Notes under the pieces: generated by a model
Databases searched by the model: none
Seen by the model: only the letters and a program-made list of their open reading frames with translations
Told to the model about the DNA's origin: nothing
Program-made: the position numbers and the translations under genes
In this document: piece after piece, positions 5,204 to 30,391 of the stretch
Layout of the letters: each line of letters opens with the position of its first letter
How positions within the stretch are numbered: the first letter of the stretch is position 1
From: a virus
Strand: one strand, 5' to 3'
Virus record (IMG/VR): IMGVR_UViG_3300033148_004889
Location: 1-35,833 of that record
DNA length: 35,833 nucleotides

Positions 5204-5502
5204 TTCTGCAGCCCCAGGCGAGCAAGGATTTTCGTCTGTCCCTCAAGGACGTTTTTCATATCGGCTTTCAATTCGCTTATATCCAGCCGCTGCTGTTCGA
5301 TTTTGAATTGCAGAAGATCAGACAAGCCTTTTCGGCGTTCCCTGCAAGATGTCTGTCTCACCGCTCCATGTTCAGGATTCATCAGCGTATCCACGGATTG
5401 CCTGGTTTCTCTGTGCATCCAGGCATATGCCCCTACAGCGCCAACGGCGCCGGAAGCTGCGGTAATCCCGGTAATGATGAGCCCGAAAAGATGGCCTTCC
5501 AT
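5200..5502 (-). CDS. Membrane-anchored coiled-coil lysis-cassette protein
   Basis: The 100-residue product has an N-terminal membrane span (residues about 5-28, GLIITGITAASGAVGAVGAYAW) and then a long charged helix (LLQFKIEQQRLDISELKADMKNVLEGQ) with heptad character. This build fits an inner-membrane spanin or a holin/antiholin of the XhlA type. It lies between the tailspike and the endolysin, with GGGAAA before the ATG. I cannot decide between i-spanin and holin. Confidence 0.6.
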   Translation of the reverse strand: MEGHLFGLIITGITAASGAVGAVGAYAWMHRETRQSVDTLMNPEHGAVRQTSCRERRKGLSDLLQFKIEQQRLDISELKADMKNVLEGQTKILARLGLQK

Positions 5503-5513
5503 GCTGTTTCCCT

Positions 5514-7790
5514 TTATGGCGCAAGAATTTCAGCCGATTCAAGTGCGGATATCACCTCGTTGAGCTTGGTCACAATTGCATTGATTTGAGTCGTGAGAGT
5601 GCCAAGGTCTGTGTTGAATTGACTTAAGTCAATAGAATCTGAACCTGAAGCAGCAGATATAGAGCTCACGCTTGAAGCGTCTGTTATCGCTGTCTGCTGT
5701 TTCACGGCTATGGTTACACCTCCAGCACCATCAGAAGATGCAGTAATGCCTGTGCCTCCATTAACATAGTCTGCAAAAATCCTCGGAACATATGCATTAC
5801 CTGACCTTGATGGCGTGAACAGCCAGATTCTATCCACCCGAATCTCGGAGCCGTTCGCGTTATCGAAAGTTATTTCAATCTGCTGAACATCTTCCCTCGC
5901 TCCGGCTTCCTCTTCTTCGGACCCGAAAGCAACTATATGAGCTCTTTCTGTGTTGCCGGAAGTGAAGTCAGAGATGGTCTTCAACGTTTTCCATGAAGCA
6001 CCATCATAGCACCGGATGGTTATATCATCAGGAACATATGAGGCAGACCTAAAATCAATGCCAAGGGTCGCCAAATTGATTGTATTCGCGGTGGTTATGG
6101 TCAACCAAACCGGCAAAGATGCCGCAGTCCAAGTAACATATCCTGCATTTGTCGGGTCAAAGATGTCTGTATAAGACCCGGAATCAGCAGGAGCACTCGC
6201 GCTCACAGAACCAAGATATGGCACATAGGCCAGGTAGTCATCCTGGTTGCCGCTATAGACTGCTTTATCATAACTTCTCGGCGGATTAGACGCATTGATA
6301 AGATTAGCTCCTCTTACCGTAGGTTCTCCACCAAGAATGCTGTTTCTTTGTCCATAGTCTTTATAGTAATCCATTGAGAAATCAGCAACAAAAAAGACAT
6401 TATTGTCTGCATCTTCCTCAAGAACTATTGAGTGGTCTCCATTAGCTTGCTGAAAATCAAAAAGCTTAGCTTGTACGATATTCCCATCAGCACCAGCAGC
6501 GAATTTAATGTTCGCTTCCGTCGCTGAAACAGTTTGGCAAACTAAATTCACAAAAATATTCCCAGCTGCACCAGTCCCGGCACCTCCGGTATAAGCAGAA
6601 GAAATAAGGTTATACTTGTTAGTCAAATAAACATTGCTGAACATATTGCCATTTACAAACGAATCCACAGATGGATCCAGATGAATACCATATTCAAAAT
6701 TTGAAACACTAACATCAGAAACCATCAACTGCGAAACAGGACCTGTTGAAGAATCACAATGGATTCCAGTGCCGGTATAATCGCTGGTGCTGTTCCGAAT
6801 CCTGACGCCCTGGATGCCCCAATGAATATCATTCCCAGGAGTGCCACCGACAATAGTGTATTCACCAGGGTCAATAATCCCTCGTCCGCGAATCATGCTC
6901 TTGCGGACAACCTTGAACATATCAACATCCGCCGTTGGAATAATCGAAGTTCCTTCAGGGATGTACAGGTCCACATTGGGCGCAAGAGTCACGGTCGAAT
7001 CGAGATAAACTATCCCACCCTGGGCAATAACTGTTCCCGAAGTCATTGAATTTATTGCCGCCTGGATAGCATCATCATCTGTACCCCACCAGTCAGCGTA
7101 ACATTCCGTCTGTTCTTCTTCCAGGGTAACGGTACCGCTCCCTGAAAAAATCTGATACTGCCCTGCCGAAACATGACTGGCGGTGAAGGTTATCCCCGAA
7201 TCAATAGACAAAACCGCCCCGCGCTCAAATTCAACAGTGATATTGGCGGGAACGGTTTCACTGGTGGACAAAGTGAACGTGGTAGTCGCCCCGCTATCGG
7301 TATGAGGAAATACGATAGTCGCCTGGTCAGAACCGATGGAATCAACGAGGTCCTTCAGACTCGAACCATTTCCGGCGGCCCCCTGGTCTGTTTCATCCGG
7401 GTCCACGTAATAGGTGTTATCAGTATCAATGAGATATTGATAAACGCCTTCGAGATTGTCTTGGGTGTAAATGATGGCGCCTGCTGCGTCCCTGATAACC
7501 GCCTTATACGTTCCAGAGACGTACAAGGTGGTGCTTGTGCCGCCATATTGCGGTTCGCCGCGGCTGTTCAGCGTAACAGAAGTGCCTACAGCCGTTGTCA
7601 GGTCCTTGTCCGCATATACGGTTTTCGGCGTGGACGTTCCGGCTTCGTAGAAATAGATTGTGCCGTTCGCCACCGGCGTGCCGTTGGAATCCAGCACTTG
7701 CCATATCGGGCTGATAACAAGCTCAGCGGCAATGGCGACAGAGACAACCGCGAAAACAGCGAACAAAGAAACAGCTATGCCCTTTTTCAT
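5514..7790 (-). CDS. Tailspike / tail fibre with beta-helix and signal peptide
   Basis: The 758-residue protein stands where P22 has gp9 and is the likely receptor-binding spike. Residues 1-21 form a Sec-like signal peptide (MKKGIAVSLFAVFAVVSVAIA), which is odd for a virion protein. Residues about 25-115 resemble a spike head-binding module (SPIWQVLDSNGTPVANGTIYFYEAG and the TLYVSGTYKAVIRDAAG strands). The middle, about 150-500, is rich in Gly, Asn, Val and Thr with pectate-lyase-like beta-helix character. The C-terminus ends in a helical stretch (LTTQINAIVTKLNEVISALESAE), possibly a trimeric coiled coil. The ribosome-binding site GGGAGGTAAT lies in the end of the preceding gene. A glycan-depolymerase activity is possible but no catalytic residues could be assigned. 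Confidence 0.75.
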   Translation of the reverse strand: MKKGIAVSLFAVFAVVSVAIAAELVISPIWQVLDSNGTPVANGTIYFYEAGTSTPKTVYADKDLTTAVGTSVTLNSRGEPQYGGTSTTLYVSGTYKAVIRDAAGAIIYTQDNLEGVYQYLIDTDNTYYVDPDETDQGAAGNGSSLKDLVDSIGSDQATIVFPHTDSGATTTFTLSTSETVPANITVEFERGAVLSIDSGITFTASHVSAGQYQIFSGSGTVTLEEEQTECYADWWGTDDDAIQAAINSMTSGTVIAQGGIVYLDSTVTLAPNVDLYIPEGTSIIPTADVDMFKVVRKSMIRGRGIIDPGEYTIVGGTPGNDIHWGIQGVRIRNSTSDYTGTGIHCDSSTGPVSQLMVSDVSVSNFEYGIHLDPSVDSFVNGNMFSNVYLTNKYNLISSAYTGGAGTGAAGNIFVNLVCQTVSATEANIKFAAGADGNIVQAKLFDFQQANGDHSIVLEEDADNNVFFVADFSMDYYKDYGQRNSILGGEPTVRGANLINASNPPRSYDKAVYSGNQDDYLAYVPYLGSVSASAPADSGSYTDIFDPTNAGYVTWTAASLPVWLTITTANTINLATLGIDFRSASYVPDDITIRCYDGASWKTLKTISDFTSGNTERAHIVAFGSEEEEAGAREDVQQIEITFDNANGSEIRVDRIWLFTPSRSGNAYVPRIFADYVNGGTGITASSDGAGGVTIAVKQQTAITDASSVSSISAASGSDSIDLSQFNTDLGTLTTQINAIVTKLNEVISALESAEILAP

Positions 7791-7791
7791 A

Positions 7792-10700
7792 TTACCTCCC
7801 GAATGCGGCCTCCAGTTTTTCTTTTCTGATCTGGAGACTTAACGTTTTTATCTCGGAAATCTTCTTGATTCCTTCCTCATGGCTTATTTCGTTGCGCCGC
7901 ATCTGGCGCTTGATGTCGGAAATCTCTTCCCCTGCTTTCCTGGCGACCTTGTTCATTTGCAATTTGTAGTATTTAAGCAAGGTTTCCTCATCAGCAGGAG
8001 ACAACTTGATGCCAAGCAATGCAGACATTATGGCGTCTGACAATTCATATGGCCTGCCTGCCCAATCCATGACCTTTTTTTCATCCGACAACGCATTTTG
8101 CAGGCCGACCTTGAGTTTTTCAAACCCATAACCACCAGGCGCCATCGGTGGCGCAATTTCCTTATAGGCGAAATCAATATACTTTTGCAAGACCTTGGCG
8201 AGCGCCTTGGTTTTGCTTTTGACCGTTTCGCTTTCCTGGAGATAAACAGTGGGCGCTATTTCCCGCCCGGTAAACGGGTCCCTGTTCATCACGAGAGCGG
8301 CCGGGACTCTCAAATATGGCGCGGATGGTACAAGCCCCTGCAACGCATCGCCATACAAAAAATAAGAAGCATCAAGATAGAGATTGTTGCCCCATTTGTC
8401 CTTAAACGGCATCAATATGTGTGCTCTCGGACCTATGACACCCAAACGGGTTTGCATCCACTTCGGTAAAAGCGCCCGTTCCCTTTTGGCCTCTTCTTCG
8501 CTGATGCCAAGCTTTTTCTTGGAATATTCTTCAACAGCCTGCATGGCCCCCAAGGACAAAGCGACCTTGAAGGGCTTTCGGAATGCCATTTCCGCAAGCA
8601 ACGGCTTGGATTTATACGCCCAGGTGATGAACGGATTCCACCACCGCTTGCTCCATTTTATTAACGGTGGAATATCGCTGTAATCAAACAGATATTTCTG
8701 CGCCTTCTTGCCGGCTTCCTCCACGCTAAGCCCGTCTTGGCGCGCCTTGATGAATACAGCGGTTTTGAAAAATTCTTCGTTTTTCTGGTAGACGTCTCCA
8801 GCGAATTCAAAGCCTTTGCGTATCCATGACCGCAATTGCTGCGGATTGCGAATCTCGTTCAATTCATCCCGCAATCGCCCGAGTTCCGCTTTGCGGAATG
8901 TGTTGTCATACAAGCCGAAATCCTTGGCTTCCCGGTAAAAAACATTGGCCTCCTTTTGGCGGATAGCATCAAACGCCTTGGCGTATACCGGCATGTCTGT
9001 AACCGGGTTCACGTCGCCATAAAATGCCAACCACAAATTCCCAACGAAGTTCCTTGCCTGTGTCGCGGGGTTCAGAACAACCTTTCCATATTTCCAAAGC
9101 CCCTGATATTTATCAAAAAGCTGGATAGCCGCGCTTCTCCATTCCTCGACCTCTCTCAAGTCATTCCAAATATCTTTGCGGACATATTTTCCATTAAGCG
9201 CGCCGAATCTCTTATCCTGAACAAGATGATAATTTTTCATCAATCCTTCGGGCTTGGTTTTCACCCAATTCGGGTTATTGGCAATCTCCTGGAATGTTTT
9301 CGCCTTGATGACATCTTGGAATTGGGTGGTCATTCCCTTGGCTACAGGATATGCTGCTTCATCAATGCGCCCCATAAGACGCTGAAGTTCTTCAGGGATG
9401 TCCTGTCGGCGGTGGGTATAGCCAAGATCGAGTTTTTCCCGAAATTCCCGGAGCGCCGCCTTGCTTTTCTTGCCAAGATATTCTTCGGCCGTAGCGATAA
9501 GGTCATCTAGGTATCTTGCAGCTTCCAATTCTTCCAATTGAGAGGCCGTTAAATCCGCTTGTCTTTCATCGGGAGCGGTGATTTTAGCCCGCTGTTTTTT
9601 AAGTTCCTTGACGAATTCTTCTAAATCCTTTCGCTTCTTCGGAGTCATGTTGTGGATATCATACATCCTTGGGATGTATTCTTTTGTGCTGCCGACATGG
9701 TAATAATCCTTGAGCCGTTGCTTGGCGAATATAGCCGCCTCGCCCTTGACGCGCTCAAGACGATTCATGATTTGTTCCTGTTGTTGCGGAGACGCCGTTT
9801 TGAGCTTGTCGGAAAGAATCGTAATCTGATCTGCGTAATCATCCATTCCGACGCGCCGCATTGTCTCAAGCGCTTCAGGCGTGTCTATCTTGGCGGCATT
9901 GTCGCCGATAAGCCGATAAGCGGCGCGCTGATTCCTGGTGAGCTTGTCAAACATGGAATATCTCGCAATGCCGAGTTCTTTTTGGATCTTCCGCGCCTCG
10001 GCAAACAGCTTATTGAATTTTTCCGCCTTTCGTTTCATCTCCGCGCTTGCGCCAGCGCTGCCTTGTATAATTTGCGTCATTCTGCGCTGCGCGGTAGCCG
10101 TTGGGGCAATCTCATTGATTTCATTAGCTATTTTAATCGCACGCTCATCTGCCCTATTAAGCGCGACCATAGTGCGCCGCATCAAGTCCTTAAACTTGGG
10201 ATCACTCTCAAAACCAAGACCATACGCCACCCTCGGCGCATGAATCTTTGTCTGCGTCTTGGCCCATTCCTTAAAGGAGTTCAAAAACGGCGTGGCAATT
10301 TTTTTGTCCCACTTTTTTTCTATATTATCAATGACTTTCAGGCTTTTTACCGCCGCCGCGGTGCCTCCGCCTATCACAAGGGCGGAAATAGCGGCGTTCT
10401 TGTAATCGAATTTCAGTTCACCTGTTTCTTCAAACGTATCCCAATCAATGCCGCCATAAAGCCCTGCCACCGGCGCGGTAACAGCCGCCCCTTGCGTCAT
10501 GGCCGTGGCGCGGGCGAGGGCGCGGCCGCTTTTTCCAAGGATTTTATACGCCATGGATGGATTTCTCGCGGCGCGATAGGTTGTCCAGGCCGCTTCCGCG
10601 AGTTCAGCATCCTGTAACTGTCTTGCCGCTACAGCCGCCTTTCTTGCGGCTTTTTGTATGGATTTGGCGCTGCCCCTTTGAGTAACCCTGGAAAGCCTCT

Positions 10701-11634: not shown

Positions 11635-12756
11635 TTATTGCATCTCAAAATTCCGCCTGAGAATTTCAACTGCCTCGGCCCGGCTAATTTCCTCGCGAAG
11701 CATGGCTTCTCTTACTTCCTCAGGGCTATTGAACGTTTTCGTTGGTTTTGGTCCGGCTTTTTGGGTTTCTGCCGGTTTTGTCCCGGTTACGTTGGGCCTT
11801 GCCGGTTTTGCCTTGGTTTTTTTGCGCCAAATTCCCGCCCGTTCAAGGATTTCCGGTATCCTGTCTTCAGGGAATCCTTTGGCTTTCAATGCGGCTTGCG
11901 CCTTGTTGTAATCCACAGGAACACGCGTCGCAAGATCGGATAAATAAGAAGTTGCTTTATTTATGTTGTCAAAAACCGCACCTTTTGAGTATTCAGGCAC
12001 AGCATCCAATCCGCGACCTTTCCGAATTTCAAAAAGCGCCTGAGTAATGGCGTCGGTAAGAGGCACCCCGGATAGAAAGAGCTCCCCGGCCAGCTGAACC
12101 GCCATGGCATATTCTTTAACATGTTCAGGTCTTATATTGCCAAACTCATCAGCCTGGAAAAATGGTTTCACTGCATCCGCAACACGTTTCAGATCGACCG
12201 CCGCGATTCCTCGACCGCCACCGGCGCCCTCGCCTTTCTTGCTGACGAGTTCAGAACTAACACCATGTTGAGCCAAAAGGGTAACAAACTTTTGTGGATC
12301 ATTAGCAAGCTGAGGGTTTTGCGCTAAAGCGGAAGTGACAGCCTTCACGCCTTCCGATGGCCCCTCAAATTTCAATCCATAAAGCGGCGATCCTTTTTTT
12401 GGCGTATATCTCATTCGTTGAGGCTCGCCTTCTTTAGCAGGCACAAAATCAAGCGTTCCAAATCCAAACCTGGAAAGCAATTGTTTCGCAGCCTTGGGAT
12501 CGCGTTCGGCCAAATCCACCGCCGTAGAAAAAACATCGAGCTTGAACTTTTGAACTTCAAGATCATCCTGCTCGGGTAAAGCCTCCATCTCCGGAAACCC
12601 ACCGCGCCGCAGCAGTTCATTCGCGGCTTTTGTCTGGCCGAGCTCCGCGTAAAGCATCGCGTTCTGAAGCTGCTGTTGCTTCTTAAGCCTTCTCTGTTCA
12701 AACGCTCTCGCAATTTCGTTTGAAAAATCCAGGTCCATTGGTGCGACGTATGGCAT
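11635..12756 (-). CDS. Putative ejection / internal virion protein (gp20 position)
   Basis: A 373-residue, mostly helical, hydrophilic protein lies between the gp7-like and gp16-like genes. ATG 12756 (MPYVAPMDLDFSNEIARAF) is chosen because AGGAGG lies 7 nt upstream of it; an ATG at 12762 would be one base from that site. The N-terminal 60 residues are Gln/Arg/Lys-rich (FEQRRLKKQQQLQNAML). The C-terminal 70 residues contain a Lys/Pro/Thr-rich linker, then a helical domain EEVREAMLREEISRAEAVEIL. No family recognised with certainty; the role is inferred from gene order. Confidence 0.5.
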   Translation of the reverse strand: MPYVAPMDLDFSNEIARAFEQRRLKKQQQLQNAMLYAELGQTKAANELLRRGGFPEMEALPEQDDLEVQKFKLDVFSTAVDLAERDPKAAKQLLSRFGFGTLDFVPAKEGEPQRMRYTPKKGSPLYGLKFEGPSEGVKAVTSALAQNPQLANDPQKFVTLLAQHGVSSELVSKKGEGAGGGRGIAAVDLKRVADAVKPFFQADEFGNIRPEHVKEYAMAVQLAGELFLSGVPLTDAITQALFEIRKGRGLDAVPEYSKGAVFDNINKATSYLSDLATRVPVDYNKAQAALKAKGFPEDRIPEILERAGIWRKKTKAKPARPNVTGTKPAETQKAGPKPTKTFNSPEEVREAMLREEISRAEAVEILRRNFEMQ

Positions 12757-14043: not shown

Positions 14044-15212
14044 TTCGTTCCCATCTGCTTGGAGCCCATAGTATTTACCTGATGATAAACTCCAACAGCC
14101 CCGAGAGCGGCATCATCAGTATAGGTATCATCAGCATCGCTAGAATCTCGAAAAATTCTGAAATTTATCTGCGTGCCGATGTCAAAATCAGTTCCAGGAA
14201 TAGGCGTTAAAAAAGTTTCCATTATCTGTTCCCAGGCTGTTCCTGTAGCGGCACTGACAACAGAAACAGTATCTGTTGCATAGACATAACCTGTGGTGCT
14301 GGCAAAGTATTCAATCTGCCACTTAACATTTCCAGCGGCGGCAGTTGTTGGATACCAATGAACATGTAAATAAATATCAGTACCTTCTTTGTAAGTGTGA
14401 TTCAAAGTCAAGGAACCATGCAGTTCGTTCGTGGCCCCACCGCCATCAAAGGCGTAAATCAGAATATCTGTTGCATCAAAATTTATCAAAGTCGGCTGAT
14501 TCGCTGCACCCTTAGCCAGAACATGACTGCCAAATTTGATGGAATCCCAAACAACAGTACCGCCGTTTAGGGATAAAGTTCCATCTGGGTCAATTTCGAC
14601 ATAATTAGTTGCATCCCCAAGCCTGATGAGGTCCGGCAAGGACAGAGTAACGGTCCCATCACCGTTATCGGTCACAGTAACTTTGTAGTTGGTTCCCTGA
14701 ACCCATGAGGCAAGATTCGCCACAGACACCAGCGCCTTATCGCCATCGGTCGCCAGAAGCCTGCTTGCAGTAGCGCCGGAAAGCGTCAACCCGGCAAAGG
14801 TGGGCGAATCAGTCGGATCAACGGATTGTCCGATGCTGACTGTCGCCGTGCCGTCTCCATCATCCGCCACGGTCACACCTGTCCCACCAGTCAGCCATGC
14901 CGCAAGACTGCCGACAGATTCAATCGCCTTGGCCGCGGTCGCAGCCAAAAGCCTCGATGCCGTCAACCCGGAAAGCGTCAACCCGGCAAAAGTCGGCGAA
15001 GAATCCGTGTCCACATCCTGGGGCAAGCTCAACGTAACGGCGCCGTTATCGCTAAGAGTGACTAAAATCTGTTTCGCCGTCCCGGAAATATCCTCCAGCT
15101 TCTTGTTGAGCGCTTCGGACAAAATCACGATAACTCTTGCCGTCTCGCGGCCCAGGACGTCCGCTACGCGCCTCAAAACCCCCTGGGGTATTTGGATGAG
15201 GGTGCTTCCCAT
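14040..15212 (-). CDS. Tail needle/fibre-like protein with repeats
   Basis: The 390-residue product begins with an amphipathic helix (about residues 8-45, QGVLRRVADVLGRETARVIV). Then follow two copies of a beta-rich repeat of about 60 residues containing SPTFAGLTLSG, ASRLLA and DDGDGTATVSI, with a partial third (TVTDNGDGTVTLSL). The C-terminal 160 residues look like a beta-sandwich with the LHVHWYPTTAAAGNVKWQIE strands. It lies right after the gp10-like plug, where P22 encodes the tail needle gp26. A needle, tail-tip or fibre role is therefore likely. The helix-then-beta layout suggests a trimer. Confidence 0.6.
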   Translation of the reverse strand: MGSTLIQIPQGVLRRVADVLGRETARVIVILSEALNKKLEDISGTAKQILVTLSDNGAVTLSLPQDVDTDSSPTFAGLTLSGLTASRLLAATAAKAIESVGSLAAWLTGGTGVTVADDGDGTATVSIGQSVDPTDSPTFAGLTLSGATASRLLATDGDKALVSVANLASWVQGTNYKVTVTDNGDGTVTLSLPDLIRLGDATNYVEIDPDGTLSLNGGTVVWDSIKFGSHVLAKGAANQPTLINFDATDILIYAFDGGGATNELHGSLTLNHTYKEGTDIYLHVHWYPTTAAAGNVKWQIEYFASTTGYVYATDTVSVVSAATGTAWEQIMETFLTPIPGTDFDIGTQINFRIFRDSSDADDTYTDDAALGAVGVYHQVNTMGSKQMGTK

Positions 15213-16613: not shown

Positions 16614-17284
16614 GTGTTAAAGACAGGGAAGTCAAAGCCGACTTCGCTTACCCTCCTGGCCATGTTGTTGCGTTTGATCGCGTCAAGGTCGTCCGCGGCC
16701 CTGGCGAAGATGGACGCGGCCGGGGGAACTCCATAATCTTCCCCCAGCCGCGTCGCCAGGTTGTAGATAAGGGCCTCGTCCCAGCCTTCCGGAAGACTCA
16801 TATCCGTCCCGATATCGGCGACTGTGATATCAGCAAACGGCTTGATGGAATGCAGATTCAAAGTGTAGCCGGTATCAGGAACAGGCCAAAAAATGAGTAT
16901 CCCCAAAGGATTTTCAGGGATATACACCATGGCCGTCGGGATAGATTCCGTATCCTTGTCTTCAATCTCGCGGTAATCCCGCAGGGATATCAGATCCAAT
17001 GGATACGAAATCGTGCTGTCCGTCAGGTAGGCCCCTTCGATAGAGACAGGTCTTGTGGTGTCGAAATCGCCGGACGAACCGATAGTGTATTCGGCCGTTC
17101 CCGCTGTCAAAGAAAACGTCTCGCGGGTCGTGGCCAACGCGGCCAAATTATCCTGTTGCCACCGCTTGAGCATGGCGTTCAATGCCCTGAGCGCGTGGCT
17201 TACCTGGTCACCGGTTGCGCTTTCACCAACACCCAGCACACCGATTTTCATTAAGGCGCTTTCTATCAGTTCGTTCGGCGTCAT
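16610..17284 (-). CDS. P22 gp4-like head-completion / tail adaptor protein
   Basis: The 224-residue protein begins with a helix pair (TPNELIESALMKIGVLG, HALRALNAMLKRWQQDNLA) and continues with the FSLTAGTAEYTIGSSGDF strand region. This combination is typical of the gp4 tail-accessory factor family, which joins the portal ring to gp10. The C-terminus is helical (EALIYNLATRLGEDYG). It overlaps gp10 by ATGA, and gene order strongly supports the call. Confidence 0.85.
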   Translation of the reverse strand: MTPNELIESALMKIGVLGVGESATGDQVSHALRALNAMLKRWQQDNLAALATTRETFSLTAGTAEYTIGSSGDFDTTRPVSIEGAYLTDSTISYPLDLISLRDYREIEDKDTESIPTAMVYIPENPLGILIFWPVPDTGYTLNLHSIKPFADITVADIGTDMSLPEGWDEALIYNLATRLGEDYGVPPAASIFARAADDLDAIKRNNMARRVSEVGFDFPVFNT

Positions 17285-27839: not shown

Positions 27840-28150
27840 ACCGATAACATACAATATGTAAACTTTTTTGGATTTGCTGGAATATCAATAAGTTAAATTA
27901 TATGTAATTATATGACGGCCGGGCAGGGCCCGCCCGAAGGGGTCGGGCTGAACGTGCGGGCGGAGATAAAAGCTATTAATCCAATTAAATCTATCTATAG
28001 AATTTATAGGCTTCACTGATGGTAATAGTGTTAGAATATAGTTAATAGGACTGAACTTAAAATAACACTAGAATATAATATATTAAATATAATATAGTTA
28101 GACATGGTTATGATGTTAGACTTGGTAATATATCATATAGCTATATTGCT
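27840..28150. other. AT-rich tract with short repeats
   Basis: Apart from a GC-rich island at about 27916-27965, this tract is strongly A+T-rich. It contains direct repeats TAGAATATA (28032-28040, 28069-28077) and GTTAGAC (about 28097 and 28115), plus stretches such as AATATATTAAATATAATATA. It could ease DNA melting or serve as an UP/binding region. Confidence 0.5.
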
Positions 28151-28179
28151 GGGGCTGGTGGTGGGGTGGTGCTGGTTGC

Positions 28180-28201
28180 GGGTTTGCGGGGTTGGGTGGG
28201 G
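28180..28201 (+). other. G-quadruplex-type motif
   Basis: Four G-runs follow each other with short loops: GGG (28180-28182), GGGG (28188-28191), GGG (28194-28196), GGGG (28198-28201). This meets the usual G3+N1-7 pattern and lies in a longer G/T-rich, C-poor stretch (28151-28235) directly after the AT-rich tract. Confidence 0.6.
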
Positions 28202-28254
28202 TTTGGTAGTGCTGGGCGTTATCACCTCGGCCTGCCTGGTTGCTCGGCGGCGGC

Positions 28255-28384
28255 CGCATTCGGGTGCTGCTGGAGGGTGAGACCGTCTGGCTGACGCAAC
28301 ACCTTATTGCAGAGCTCTACCAGACCACGATGGCGAATTGTCCGAGGAGGCAACTTGTAAGGAATACTTACAAGTTCAAATCAA
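28255..28384 (+). pseudogene. Decayed fragment of a RhuM-family gene
   Basis: From 28255 the plus strand encodes RIRVLLEGETVWLTQHLIAE and then LYQTT, the opening of the RhuM/Fic-associated virulence protein family. From 28335, in another frame, it encodes ELSEEATCKEYLQVQI, which in the family follows about 15 residues later. The segment between (normally the QNVSLHIKNIFEEG-like part) is missing, so an internal deletion of roughly 40-45 bp has shifted the frame. Nothing of the remaining protein is visible after about 28384. It is a relic of a formerly larger gene. Confidence 0.75.
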
Positions 28385-28533
28385 TAAATGTCCATACGGA
28401 TTCATTGGGTTATATTTTTTGGTGTTTTTGGGGCGGATCGTGGGGGTTTGGGCCTGGCCCGGAGCGTTGCCTGGTCATGCATAGCCTTGTTATTCCTGCG
28501 TTTTGGCGTGTTTGTGGGCCGTGTGAAAAAAAA

Positions 28534-28586
28534 TAATCGGGTGGGTTAATTTTTTCCTTGACACGGGTTTTTTGAGGGTGTATCTT
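28534..28586 (+). promoter_or_regulatory. Rightward early promoter P1
   Basis: A perfect -35 TTGACA (28558-28563) and -10 TATCTT (28581-28586) are 17 bp apart. Upstream is GGTTAATTTTTT, like an UP element, and a dyad TAATC-N5-GGTTA (28534-28548). The whole 53-bp block aligns without gaps with P2 at 35002-35054. It drives the small early genes from 28639. Confidence 0.75.
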
Positions 28587-28638
28587 GCGTGTCAAATAAT
28601 AACGGCCCATCGCGGGCCACAGCGAAAGGGGAGGGAAA

Positions 28639-28821
28639 ATGAAAAGCGAAAAAACCACGGCCACCAGGCATGGCACCATGGCGGAAATCAAGCATCAGCA
28701 TTACCTGAACAACATTGCGGGATATCTTCGGAACAACAGGGCCGAAGAGTGCCTGCGGGCAGCCATCGAGCATGCCCGGCAGGCATATTTACTCGGCGAG
28801 GGTTCCTGCCCCCGCCAATAA
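28639..28821 (+). CDS. Small early protein of unknown function
   Basis: A 60-residue protein is the first gene behind promoter P1, with an excellent ribosome-binding site (AAAGGGGAGGGAAA). The N-terminus is basic and His-rich; the rest forms helices (LNNIAGYLRNNRAEECLRAA, IEHARQAYLLG). No family recognised. A host-takeover or regulatory role is usual for such first early genes but unproven. Its TAA opens the first copy of the 83-nt intergenic element. Confidence 0.7.
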   Translation: MKSEKTTATRHGTMAEIKHQHYLNNIAGYLRNNRAEECLRAAIEHARQAYLLGEGSCPRQ

Positions 28822-28901
28822 GCCGAAACCGGGGCTTGCCCCGGTCGTCCTGGGGTGGTGCCCAGGGCCTGATGATGGCAGCCAACGAAAGGAGCAGGAA
28901 A
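28819..28901 (+). ncRNA. Intergenic two-hairpin RNA element, copy 1
   Basis: The 83-nt spacer begins with the stop codon TAA and ends at the next ATG. Hairpin 1 is ACCGGGG (28828-28834) with CCCCGGT (28839-28845), loop CTTG. Hairpin 2 is CCTGGG (28849-28854) with CCCAGG (28861-28866), loop GTGGTG. The box CTGATGATGGCAGCCA (28869-28884) follows, then the ribosome-binding site. It aligns base for base with 29175-29257, and the stems show compensatory changes. It probably acts in the mRNA as a cis-element. Confidence 0.75.
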
Positions 28902-29177
28902 ATGAGCGAGGCGAAAAAAATCATGGCGGCAGACATCGAGGAATTGGCGGAATGCGGCTACATGGATCCGGTGCTGGTTCGGTGGGAGGATGACGGCGAG
29001 TTAGAGATCGTGGCGGGGCCGAACCTGAACGACGTCTCATGGAGTGACTACGGGCGTGACCACCAGGTGGTGATTCGCCTGGCGGACATCCTGCAGGGCG
29101 CGGCGGGCGACAGCATCAAAGACGAGCAGGACGTGGCGAAAAACGCCCAGGCCATCGCGGATATGTTAATAATCTAA
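28902..29177 (+). CDS. Small acidic early protein
   Basis: A 91-residue acidic protein starts at 28902, with AAAGGAGCAGGAAA before the ATG. It shows a helix-rich N-terminus (AKKIMAADIEELAECGYMDP), short strands (PVLVRWEDDGELEIVAGPNL, HQVVIRLADIL) and an Ala-rich C-terminal helix. No family recognised. It stands between two copies of the intergenic element, which makes it look like an exchangeable cassette. Confidence 0.75.
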   Translation: MSEAKKIMAADIEELAECGYMDPVLVRWEDDGELEIVAGPNLNDVSWSDYGRDHQVVIRLADILQGAAGDSIKDEQDVAKNAQAIADMLII

Positions 29178-29257
29178 GCCGAAACCGGGCTCCAGCCCGG
29201 TCCGGGCAGGGTGGTTCCTGCTCGCTGATGATGGCAGCCACAGCAAGGGGAGGGATC
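29175..29257 (+). ncRNA. Intergenic two-hairpin RNA element, copy 2
   Basis: This spacer has the same 83-nt length and layout as copy 1. Hairpin 1 is ACCGGGC (29184-29190) with GCCCGGT (29195-29201), loop TCCA. Hairpin 2 is GGGCAGG (29204-29210) with CCTGCTC (29217-29223), loop GTGGTT. The box CTGATGATGGCAGCCA is at 29225-29240. Stem 2 differs from copy 1 at most positions but still pairs. Confidence 0.75.
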
Positions 29258-29383
29258 ATGAAAGAAAAAACCAACCAGACCAACATGGATGCCGTCCGGG
29301 CGTCGCTGGCCCGGACCAAAGAGCGGTTGGCCGCAATTTCTCAGACCAATCATGACAATCATACGGAAGGGAGCGGGAAATGA
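29258..29383 (+). CDS. 41-residue early protein
   Basis: A 41-codon frame has a strong ribosome-binding site (AAGGGGAGGGATC) delivered by the second intergenic element. It is hydrophilic and helical (MDAVRASLARTKERLAAISQ), with His and Asn near the end. It ends by ATGA overlap with the next micro-gene. No family recognised. Confidence 0.6.
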   Translation: MKEKTNQTNMDAVRASLARTKERLAAISQTNHDNHTEGSGK

Positions 29384-29448
29384 ACGAGAAATACGAAAAC
29401 ATCGTTGACGCTTTTACCGCCGCGATCAATGCCAGCGAAGACGACTGA
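29380..29448 (+). CDS. 22-residue micro-protein
   Basis: The ATG overlaps the preceding stop (ATGA) and has GGAAGGGAGCGGGAA upstream, as strong as its neighbours. The frame encodes MNEKYENIVDAFTAAINASE and two more Asp residues, an acidic helix. It is very short but the translation signals are convincing. Confidence 0.5.
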   Translation: MNEKYENIVDAFTAAINASEDD

Positions 29449-29497
29449 TACCTAGTAGTTCCAGGCCGAGCTAAAACCGGTAACAGGAGAGAAAACC

Positions 29498-29743
29498 ATG
29501 AAACACGCTGACGCATTACGGCACGCAAAACGCAACGGACGATGGGTGGTGGTGCAGGATGGTTACAACGGAGCGACAAGGAAAATGGGGGTTGTCATCG
29601 ACGGATGCCGCCAAGTCTGGCTAGTGGACGCAACGTGTTGTTGCCGGGCCGGAGTCCTGGCCCAAAGCCTGCCCGAAGCTATGGTCTGTCTGGACCAACT
29701 ATCAAACGTCCTGCAAACCGGCACTGACACGGTGCGGGAATGA
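29498..29743 (+). CDS. Small early protein with Cys triplet
   Basis: An 81-residue protein with the ribosome-binding site ACAGGAGAGAAAACC. The first half is a small beta-type domain (GRWVVVQDGYNGATRKMGVV), followed by the unusual DATCCCRAGV cysteine triplet and a helix (LPEAMVCLDQLSNVL). No family recognised. Confidence 0.65.
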   Translation: MKHADALRHAKRNGRWVVVQDGYNGATRKMGVVIDGCRQVWLVDATCCCRAGVLAQSLPEAMVCLDQLSNVLQTGTDTVRE

Positions 29744-29760
29744 AAGGAAAGGGGAAAACC

Positions 29761-29928
29761 ATGGATAGAGTACAGACCATAGCTATGCAGGCCGTTTACA
29801 AGTCCAAACCCAAGAAAGAAGAAGCTTTTGAGCTTATCAAGGTTCTGGCCACCATGTGTGAGTTCGACAAAGAAATCTTTGAAATCTTCGTAAGCCTGTA
29901 TGCCTACTTTTTACCGGCTTCGAAATGA
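29761..29928 (+). CDS. Small early protein, helical
   Basis: The 55-residue product from 29761 has AAAGGGGAAAACC before its ATG. An in-frame ATG at 29740 overlapping the preceding stop is a weaker choice. The protein is helical (EEAFELIKVLATMCEFDKEI) and ends in a hydrophobic stretch, FEIFVSLYAYFLPASK. The next frame overlaps its 3' end by 29 nt. Confidence 0.55.
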   Translation: MDRVQTIAMQAVYKSKPKKEEAFELIKVLATMCEFDKEIFEIFVSLYAYFLPASK

Positions 29929-30391
29929 ACCAAAAATCTTTCTAAAATATGGATATTCCAACGGCAAAACTTTTTTTGCCACTGATCGTCACAGAATTCA
30001 TCGTTGCCCAACTAGCTTGCAAAAGGGTTACTACGACAAAGCTCTGACGTTTCTTGGGGAAGTGCCGCCAGACGATCCTACCATACAACGCCATACAGAT
30101 TCCATAATTGAACAATGGGAAGAGGCAACCAAGCATAGCCTTCGCCTGATATTTTCTGGACGGGTTGATTTTCGGGAATGGACCCCTACAGGGCTTAAAA
30201 ACGGGCCGGAATGCCGGAGGATGCCATGGGGAAAAGTTAGTTTTCAGCTTGGGTATCTGAAAGATGCCTTTTCCATGCGCGGCCCTGAAAACGTGGAGGT
30301 TAGAACTAACGGACAGGTCCTCGTTTTTAACTTTGAAGACGGTCGACAGGTCGCCATAATGGCGCATATCGTAGACGAAGACGAGGAATAA
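29900..30391 (+). CDS. Hypothetical early protein, possibly frameshifted
   Basis: The frame gives 163 residues. The part from about residue 43 (KGYYDKALTFLGEVPPDDPT, QLGYLKDAFSMRG, VLVFNFEDGRQVAIMAHIVD) looks like a genuine soluble protein with beta strands at the end. The first 42 residues look unnatural and there is no ribosome-binding site. In the other frame, from ATG 29949, a natural-looking stretch (MDIPTAKLFLPLIVTEFIVA, QLACK) runs up to the AAAAGGG at about 30018. One extra A there would join it to the long part. The 5' end is therefore uncertain. No family recognised. Confidence 0.45.
   Translation: MPTFYRLRNEPKIFLKYGYSNGKTFFATDRHRIHRCPTSLQKGYYDKALTFLGEVPPDDPTIQRHTDSIIEQWEEATKHSLRLIFSGRVDFREWTPTGLKNGPECRRMPWGKVSFQLGYLKDAFSMRGPENVEVRTNGQVLVFNFEDGRQVAIMAHIVDEDEE

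Follow-up and report, generated by a model that had tools for sequence, protein, structure and literature searches.

Two spacers in a phage early operon match the type II hammerhead family and very probably encode ribozymes that cut its message between small genes

Results

Layout of the locus

The window, by which we mean the whole 35,833-nucleotide stretch of viral DNA analysed here (IMG/VR record IMGVR_UViG_3300033148_004889), carries on its + strand a predicted promoter, a small early gene, a first hammerhead-like spacer, a second gene, a second such spacer, a third gene and then more small genes, with the structural genes lying on the other strand (a P22-type portal, head and scaffold, DNA ejection and terminase small subunit). 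The features of the early region are as follows.

28558..28586, + strand: sigma-70-like promoter TTGACA-17-TATCTT, predicted (consensus scan, 10/12 matches), upstream of the early operon
28639..28821, + strand: small early gene 1, 60 aa (ORF list); its TAA abuts ribozyme copy 1
28821..28887, + strand: type II hammerhead copy 1 (RF02276)
28822..28827, + strand: copy 1 stem II 5' arm GCC and core GAA (G12 A13 A14) (sequence, RF02276 alignment)
28828..28845, + strand: copy 1 stem III hairpin ACCGGGG-CUUG-CCCCGGU, A15.1-U16.1 pair first (RF02276 match, fold)
28846..28847, + strand: copy 1 predicted cleavage, C17 (28846) / G28847, site GUC (homology)
28847..28868, + strand: copy 1 stem I hairpin GUCCUGGG-GUGGUG-CCCAGGGC, with loop UGGU as pseudoknot partner (alignment, fold)
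28869..28884, + strand: copy 1 CUGAUGA core, stem II 3' arm GGC and tail GCCA (pseudoknot with loop I)
28902..29177, + strand: small early gene 2, 91 aa, an orphan and the sole gene between the ribozymes (ORF list)
29177..29243, + strand: type II hammerhead copy 2 (RF02276)
29178..29201, + strand: copy 2 stem II 5' arm GCC, core GAA and stem III hairpin ACCGGGC-UCCA-GCCCGGU (stem III, 29184-29201)
29202..29203, + strand: copy 2 predicted cleavage, C17 (29202) / C29203, site GUC (homology)
29203..29224, + strand: copy 2 stem I hairpin CGGGCAGG-GUGGUU-CCUGCUCG (alignment, fold)
29225..29240, + strand: copy 2 CUGAUGA core, stem II 3' arm and pseudoknot tail GCCA
29258..29383, + strand: small early gene 3, 41 aa (reading frame)

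None of the six small early proteins, those of genes 1 and 2 included, has a significant match in Pfam or PHROGs. The nearest deposited relatives of the portal are those of Vibrio and Shewanella phages, at about 35% identity; no near relatives were found in IMG/VR with gene 2, a gene for an 81-aa protein or the portal as queries, nor did a megablast of positions 28000-30000 against deposited phages return a relative. With no near relatives in which evolution at the same site could be followed, we used wider sets of sites instead. Elsewhere in the window, at 90-830, this phage record encodes a leucine-rich-repeat protein with near-identical repeats (DLRDTQIKELPKGLQVGGW).

The two spacers, at 28819-28901 and 29175-29257, are 83 nt each and align without gaps (84% mean column identity), both opening with the TAA of the preceding gene (ORFs 28639-28821 and 28902-29177) and both followed directly by the next ATG (28902 and 29258); here the alignment and the ORF list bear out what a sequence-only reading of this DNA had described. 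That reading had also drawn attention to two hairpins. In the first, ACCGGGG/CCCCGGU in copy 1 becomes ACCGGGC/GCCCGGU in copy 2, the innermost pair being swapped from G-C to C-G, just as claimed. The second had been described as compensated at four of six pairs, and whilst the compensation stands, the stem size does not, only the inner six pairs having been counted: it is an 8-bp stem, GUCCUGGG/CCCAGGGC in copy 1 and CGGGCAGG/CCUGCUCG in copy 2, in which six of the eight pairs differ between the copies and all eight still pair, with one G-U in each. Its loops (GTGGTG in copy 1, GTGGTT in copy 2) are as stated, as is the box identical in both copies, which is 16 nt long (CTGATGATGGCAGCCA).

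Genes 1, 2 and 3 have in common a ribosome-site leader of 23 nt that finishes at the start codon (28620-28642, 28883-28905 and 29239-29261), and gene 1 has it without a ribozyme. By eye, a hairpin GGCCC/GGGCC (at about 28605-28620) precedes the gene 1 leader, similar to that expected for genes 2 and 3; given the common leader, genes 2 and 3 would, after cleavage, each start with a short hairpin followed by that leader. In the downstream product of ribozyme 2 (29203-29275), a refolding hairpin is predicted that would cover both the ribosome site of gene 3 and its start codon, but since no hairpin of that kind appears in the prediction for copy 1, it is probably not functional.

Identity of the spacers

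A scan of the whole window against all 4227 Rfam families returned only two matches over cut-off, and these are the two spacers: 28821-28887 and 29177-29243 match RF02276 (Hammerhead_II) along the full model (1-66) on the + strand, scoring 60.9 and 56.2 bits against a curated cut-off of 37 bits, with E = 2.2e-10 and 3.7e-9 in that scan and 5.2e-14 and 8.6e-13 when the RF02276 model was used alone, well past anything that chance would give. No third copy of RF02276 rises over the cut-off in the whole record, and no other Rfam family reaches its cut-off in the window, the Clostridiales-2, SorX and snoRNA matches lying far below theirs. Hammerheads of types I and III (RF00163 and RF00008) gave nothing over cut-off in the window or in 10 ribozyme-bearing phages, although the negative is weaker for RF00008, whose controls were silent too. 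One type I match, at 2710-2747 (23.5 bits, cut-off 34), lies inside the RecT gene with no GAAA core visible, and was taken as chance.

In the RF02276 alignment stem III corresponds to hairpin 1, stem I to hairpin 2 and the core segment C3-A9 to CTGATGA; stem II is made by the GCC after the stop codon pairing with the GGC after the core, and in both copies the tail GCCA has the potential to form a pseudoknot with UGGU of loop I. With hairpin 2 and its flanks mapped in this way, the identical box CTGATGATGGCAGCCA resolves into three parts: the CUGAUGA core, a strand of stem II and the tail of the pseudoknot. The core is intact in both copies (CUGAUGA; GAAA with A15.1-U16.1; a GUC site, of the NUH type), and the topology is that of type II, with stems I and III closed by loops and stem II open (hairpin order); by homology to the hammerhead core, cuts are predicted directly after C28846 and C29202. 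All three stems are present in the predicted minimum-energy fold of copy 1, the predicted fold of the 83-nt copy 2 prefers another structure, and the free-energy z-scores (-0.6 to -1.8) are unremarkable, so that the evidence is carried by covariation and the sequence boxes, and not by fold stability.

Taking these features together, both spacers very probably encode type II hammerhead ribozymes that cut the early mRNA between genes. The converse, an uncut structured leader or protein-binding site that is hammerhead-like by descent only, strikes us as extremely unlikely: cleavage of the two copies does rest on homology, but all core residues are kept in both, natural relatives with the same core cleave fast (PMC3088659) and a pseudoknot hammerhead whose structure is known is very fast (PMC11300833).

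Covariation and setting across related sites

To avoid circularity, sites were chosen by sequence alone, as CTGATGATGGCAGCC with GCCGAAA no more than 85 nt upstream, which gave 71 distinct sites in the loci collected; for the stem I test, stem III alone fixed the cleavage site. Pairing in stem I is present at 70 of the 71 sites, whereas swapping of 3' arms (500 trials) gave 31 on average and 45 at most, and at the majority of the variable positions of stems I and III four to six standard pair types occur. Between loop I and the tail, 73 representatives make on average 3.25 Watson-Crick pairs versus 2.89 with swapped tails, a mean that 0 of 1000 swaps reached, and a structure-based finder gave 334 matches in these loci, against none once the sequences (about 2 Mb) had been reversed. 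The covariation is real, and it stands with family membership, the intact core, the pairing and the position between genes as a direct result of the computation.

The search for further copies that the sequence-only reading had suggested clearly returned many, with their pairing preserved, rather than none or copies with arms changed without compensation. The claim of selection on RNA structure is thus upheld, by the Rfam match together with the covariation in stem I and between loop I and tail. Half of a further claim, that of a new cis-acting mRNA element for early genes, survives: a cis-acting early-gene element it is, but not a new one, being RF02276, of which tandem copies were published in 2011.

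The same reading had offered a cassette boundary, with the start-associated sequences of cluster K mycobacteriophages as the model; this finds no support as the main function, the arms varying with compensation and only the catalytic core being conserved. That the spacers act chiefly as DNA cassette boundaries, sites of recombination at which small genes move as units, with catalysis incidental, could draw on the wide variation of the cargo between ribozymes and on the 23-nt leader shared by genes 1-3; yet compensated arms in 70 of 71 sites would be unexpected under selection for DNA identity, and conservation is highest in the catalytic core; we regard this explanation as highly improbable.

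In 197 of 257 non-redundant matches, the stop of a long frame lies just upstream and a ribosome site and start just downstream, a setting found in 124 of 1460 random placements. Grouped by sequence, the longest frames lying between one ribozyme and the next make up 39 families; the cargo genes are therefore not conserved, and the benefit is not tied to any known protein. The exact box occurs in at least 119 IMG/VR stretches, with GCCGAAA upstream of it in 83 of 129 cases there. An exact-box scan of bacterial genomes also gave at least 119 matches, and with GCCGAAA within 85 nt upstream in only five among the matches listed, most bacterial occurrences of the 16-mer look like chance.

Of the four-base stem III loops amongst the representatives, 27 of 43 belong to the GNRA, UNCG or CUUG types, whilst 0 of 13 four-base stem I loops are GNRA or UNCG. 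These loop types agree with a stem III that is free and stable and with a stem I loop under constraint, without thereby proving a role in decay; the stable stem III tetraloops may only help folding.

The stop codon in the representatives often lies 0-8 nt before the two-pair stem II, with gaps of up to 55 nt occurring, and in both copies here the TAA directly abuts the stem II arm. Such an arrangement could point to a switch, in which a ribosome stopped at the UAA covers stem II and the GAAA core, making cleavage dependent on the translation of gene 1. We consider this unlikely: compact phage genomes also predict short gaps, the longer gaps do exist, and no ligand domain or conserved regulated gene was seen. 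It is, however, compatible with cleavage into single-gene mRNAs, and the two can hold together; that terminating ribosomes delay cutting, by way of a stop codon beside stem II, is speculative.

Multiple hammerheads in other phages

Whole records carry between 1 and 12 type II hammerheads as judged by the RF02276 model. R4-like Streptomyces phages (Arequatrovirus and relatives; R4, Janus, Alvy, Paedore, Sentinel) have 9-12 per genome of about 50 kb: nine in Streptomyces phage R4 (NC_019414.1), 11 in Janus and 9, 11, 11 and 10 in four records similar in size and arrangement, with 12 in another contig. The ribozymes of R4-like phages sit in one end region, on one strand, with none elsewhere in the genome, and in R4 this region is an operon of small early genes, where they fall in gaps of the annotation or overlap annotated genes. 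Three of the latter, gp60.1, gp67.1 and gp75.1 (about 27-33 aa), span ribozymes (locus 11763-11846, 14126-14218 and 17074-17175) and are probably mis-called. Dense R4-like arrays find no mention in the titles and abstracts from a literature search in which few subscription journals were covered, and an earlier description is possible.

Beyond these, a 94.8-kb IMG/VR contig holds seven type II hammerheads (locus 5213-9594), spaced 520-930 nt apart with unrelated cargo proteins between them, and a 191-kb contig holds two. In the Mu-like Rhodobacter phage RcapMu a hammerhead-like match was seen between the HU gene and the next gene (locus 1501-1538).

Discussion

We propose a model in which polymerase from the early promoter would copy gene 1, ribozyme 1, gene 2, ribozyme 2 and the small genes that follow, and in which each ribozyme, once complete, would pair its loop I with the GCCA tail, whereupon the core would cut after C28846 or C29202. 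The products would be three: a message for gene 1, one of 356 nt for gene 2 and, downstream, one beginning with gene 3. At each cut the message upstream would be left with the stem III hairpin and a 2',3'-cyclic phosphate at its end, and the downstream message would begin with a 5'-OH and then the stem I hairpin; it is the type II layout, with stems I and III as closed hairpins, that would place a hairpin at both of the new ends. Both end types are expected to slow the usual RNA-decay enzymes, and the outcome would be separate, stable single-gene early mRNAs.

Cleavage of both copies, the stability of the ends and the effect on expression are what we infer from the sequence evidence set out above, and co-transcriptional cleavage of the early operon into single-gene mRNAs is the likeliest role. 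Taken as a step alone, protection of the message ends by the hairpins is something we put forward only tentatively. It is also conceivable, if doubtful, that phage type II hammerheads form a general RNA end-making system that draws many stable single-gene mRNAs from each early transcript, with up to a dozen ribozymes per operon as in R4-like Streptomyces phages, and with cutting possibly gated by ribosomes that terminate at the neighbouring stop codon. Tandem prophage hammerheads are known to cleave in vitro during transcription, with the Agrobacterium set also cutting in E. coli cells (PMC3088659), and on the proposal of Perreault et al. 2011 such cutting would shorten long phage transcripts to mRNAs of operon or gene length (PMC3088659). 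By homology this would hold for the two copies here as well.

The excised 356-nt gene 2 RNA might instead be closed into a circle, by the ribozyme or by an RtcB-type ligase, and persist as a long-lived circular message or RNA. Two same-orientation ribozymes do flank one gene, the predicted ends (5'-OH and 2',3'-cyclic phosphate) are of the right kind, and hammerheads are used so by retrozymes and viroid-like RNAs. Spliced or circular products of tandem phage hammerheads have been looked for, however, and none were found (PMC3088659); the 9-12 copies per operon in R4-like phages fit serial cutting better, and no ligase gene was found among the window proteins scanned. Set beside retrozymes and other circular RNA replicons, with their circular RNA product and retroelement features, the two copies lie among phage protein genes. 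Circularisation seems to us very unlikely, and we retain cleavage into single-gene mRNAs as the preferred reading.

Both the ribozyme class and its tandem setting around small phage genes are already known (RF02276; PMC3088659). Tandem hammerheads flanking small phage genes were published by Perreault et al. 2011 (PMC3088659), and a 2017 review (PMC6155905) describes hammerheads flanking small non-conserved ORFs, linked to phages, and calls their prokaryotic and phage role open. The window provides a clean two-ribozyme example in phage early genes, and cultured Streptomyces phages (R4, Janus, Alvy and kin), with their 9-12 early-operon ribozymes, make the role testable in a laboratory strain; moreover, some annotated tiny proteins of R4 (gp60.1, gp67.1 and gp75.1) coincide with ribozymes.

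Comparison with known systems

At their start codons, cluster K mycobacteriophages carry start-associated sequences, short conserved DNA boxes which, like the spacers, are repeated elements before small phage genes. Compared by description, they differ in that we have here structured RNAs with varying arms and a catalytic core; in place of a conserved, low-variation DNA box at the start codon, the spacers have arms that differ in a compensated way, and their conservation tracks the core of the ribozyme.

In PDB 8YDC (PMC11300833), too, a pseudoknot rather than loop-loop contacts holds the hammerhead core, but this is a designed construct of two strands whose pseudoknot takes the place of helix II, whereas a short stem II remains here. 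The R4-like Streptomyces phages have the same ribozyme class in the gaps of a small-early-gene operon, differing in copy number (9-12 versus 2 here) and in being unrelated phages. The tandem prophage hammerheads (e.g. Agrobacterium ardA; PMC3088659 Figure 3) also place two same-orientation ribozymes around one small gene, although the flanked gene here encodes a 91-aa orphan, in a phage with a P22-type portal. With RF02276 itself (PMC3088659) the spacers share the order of parts (stem II arm, GAAA, stem III, GUC, stem I, CUGAUGA, stem II arm, tail), the short stem II, the loop I/tail pseudoknot and the intact core; they differ in a U after CUGAUGA and before stem II (in the Rfam alignment, a two-base insertion, UG), which is common among relatives, and nothing structural sets them apart beyond the ordinary variation of the family.
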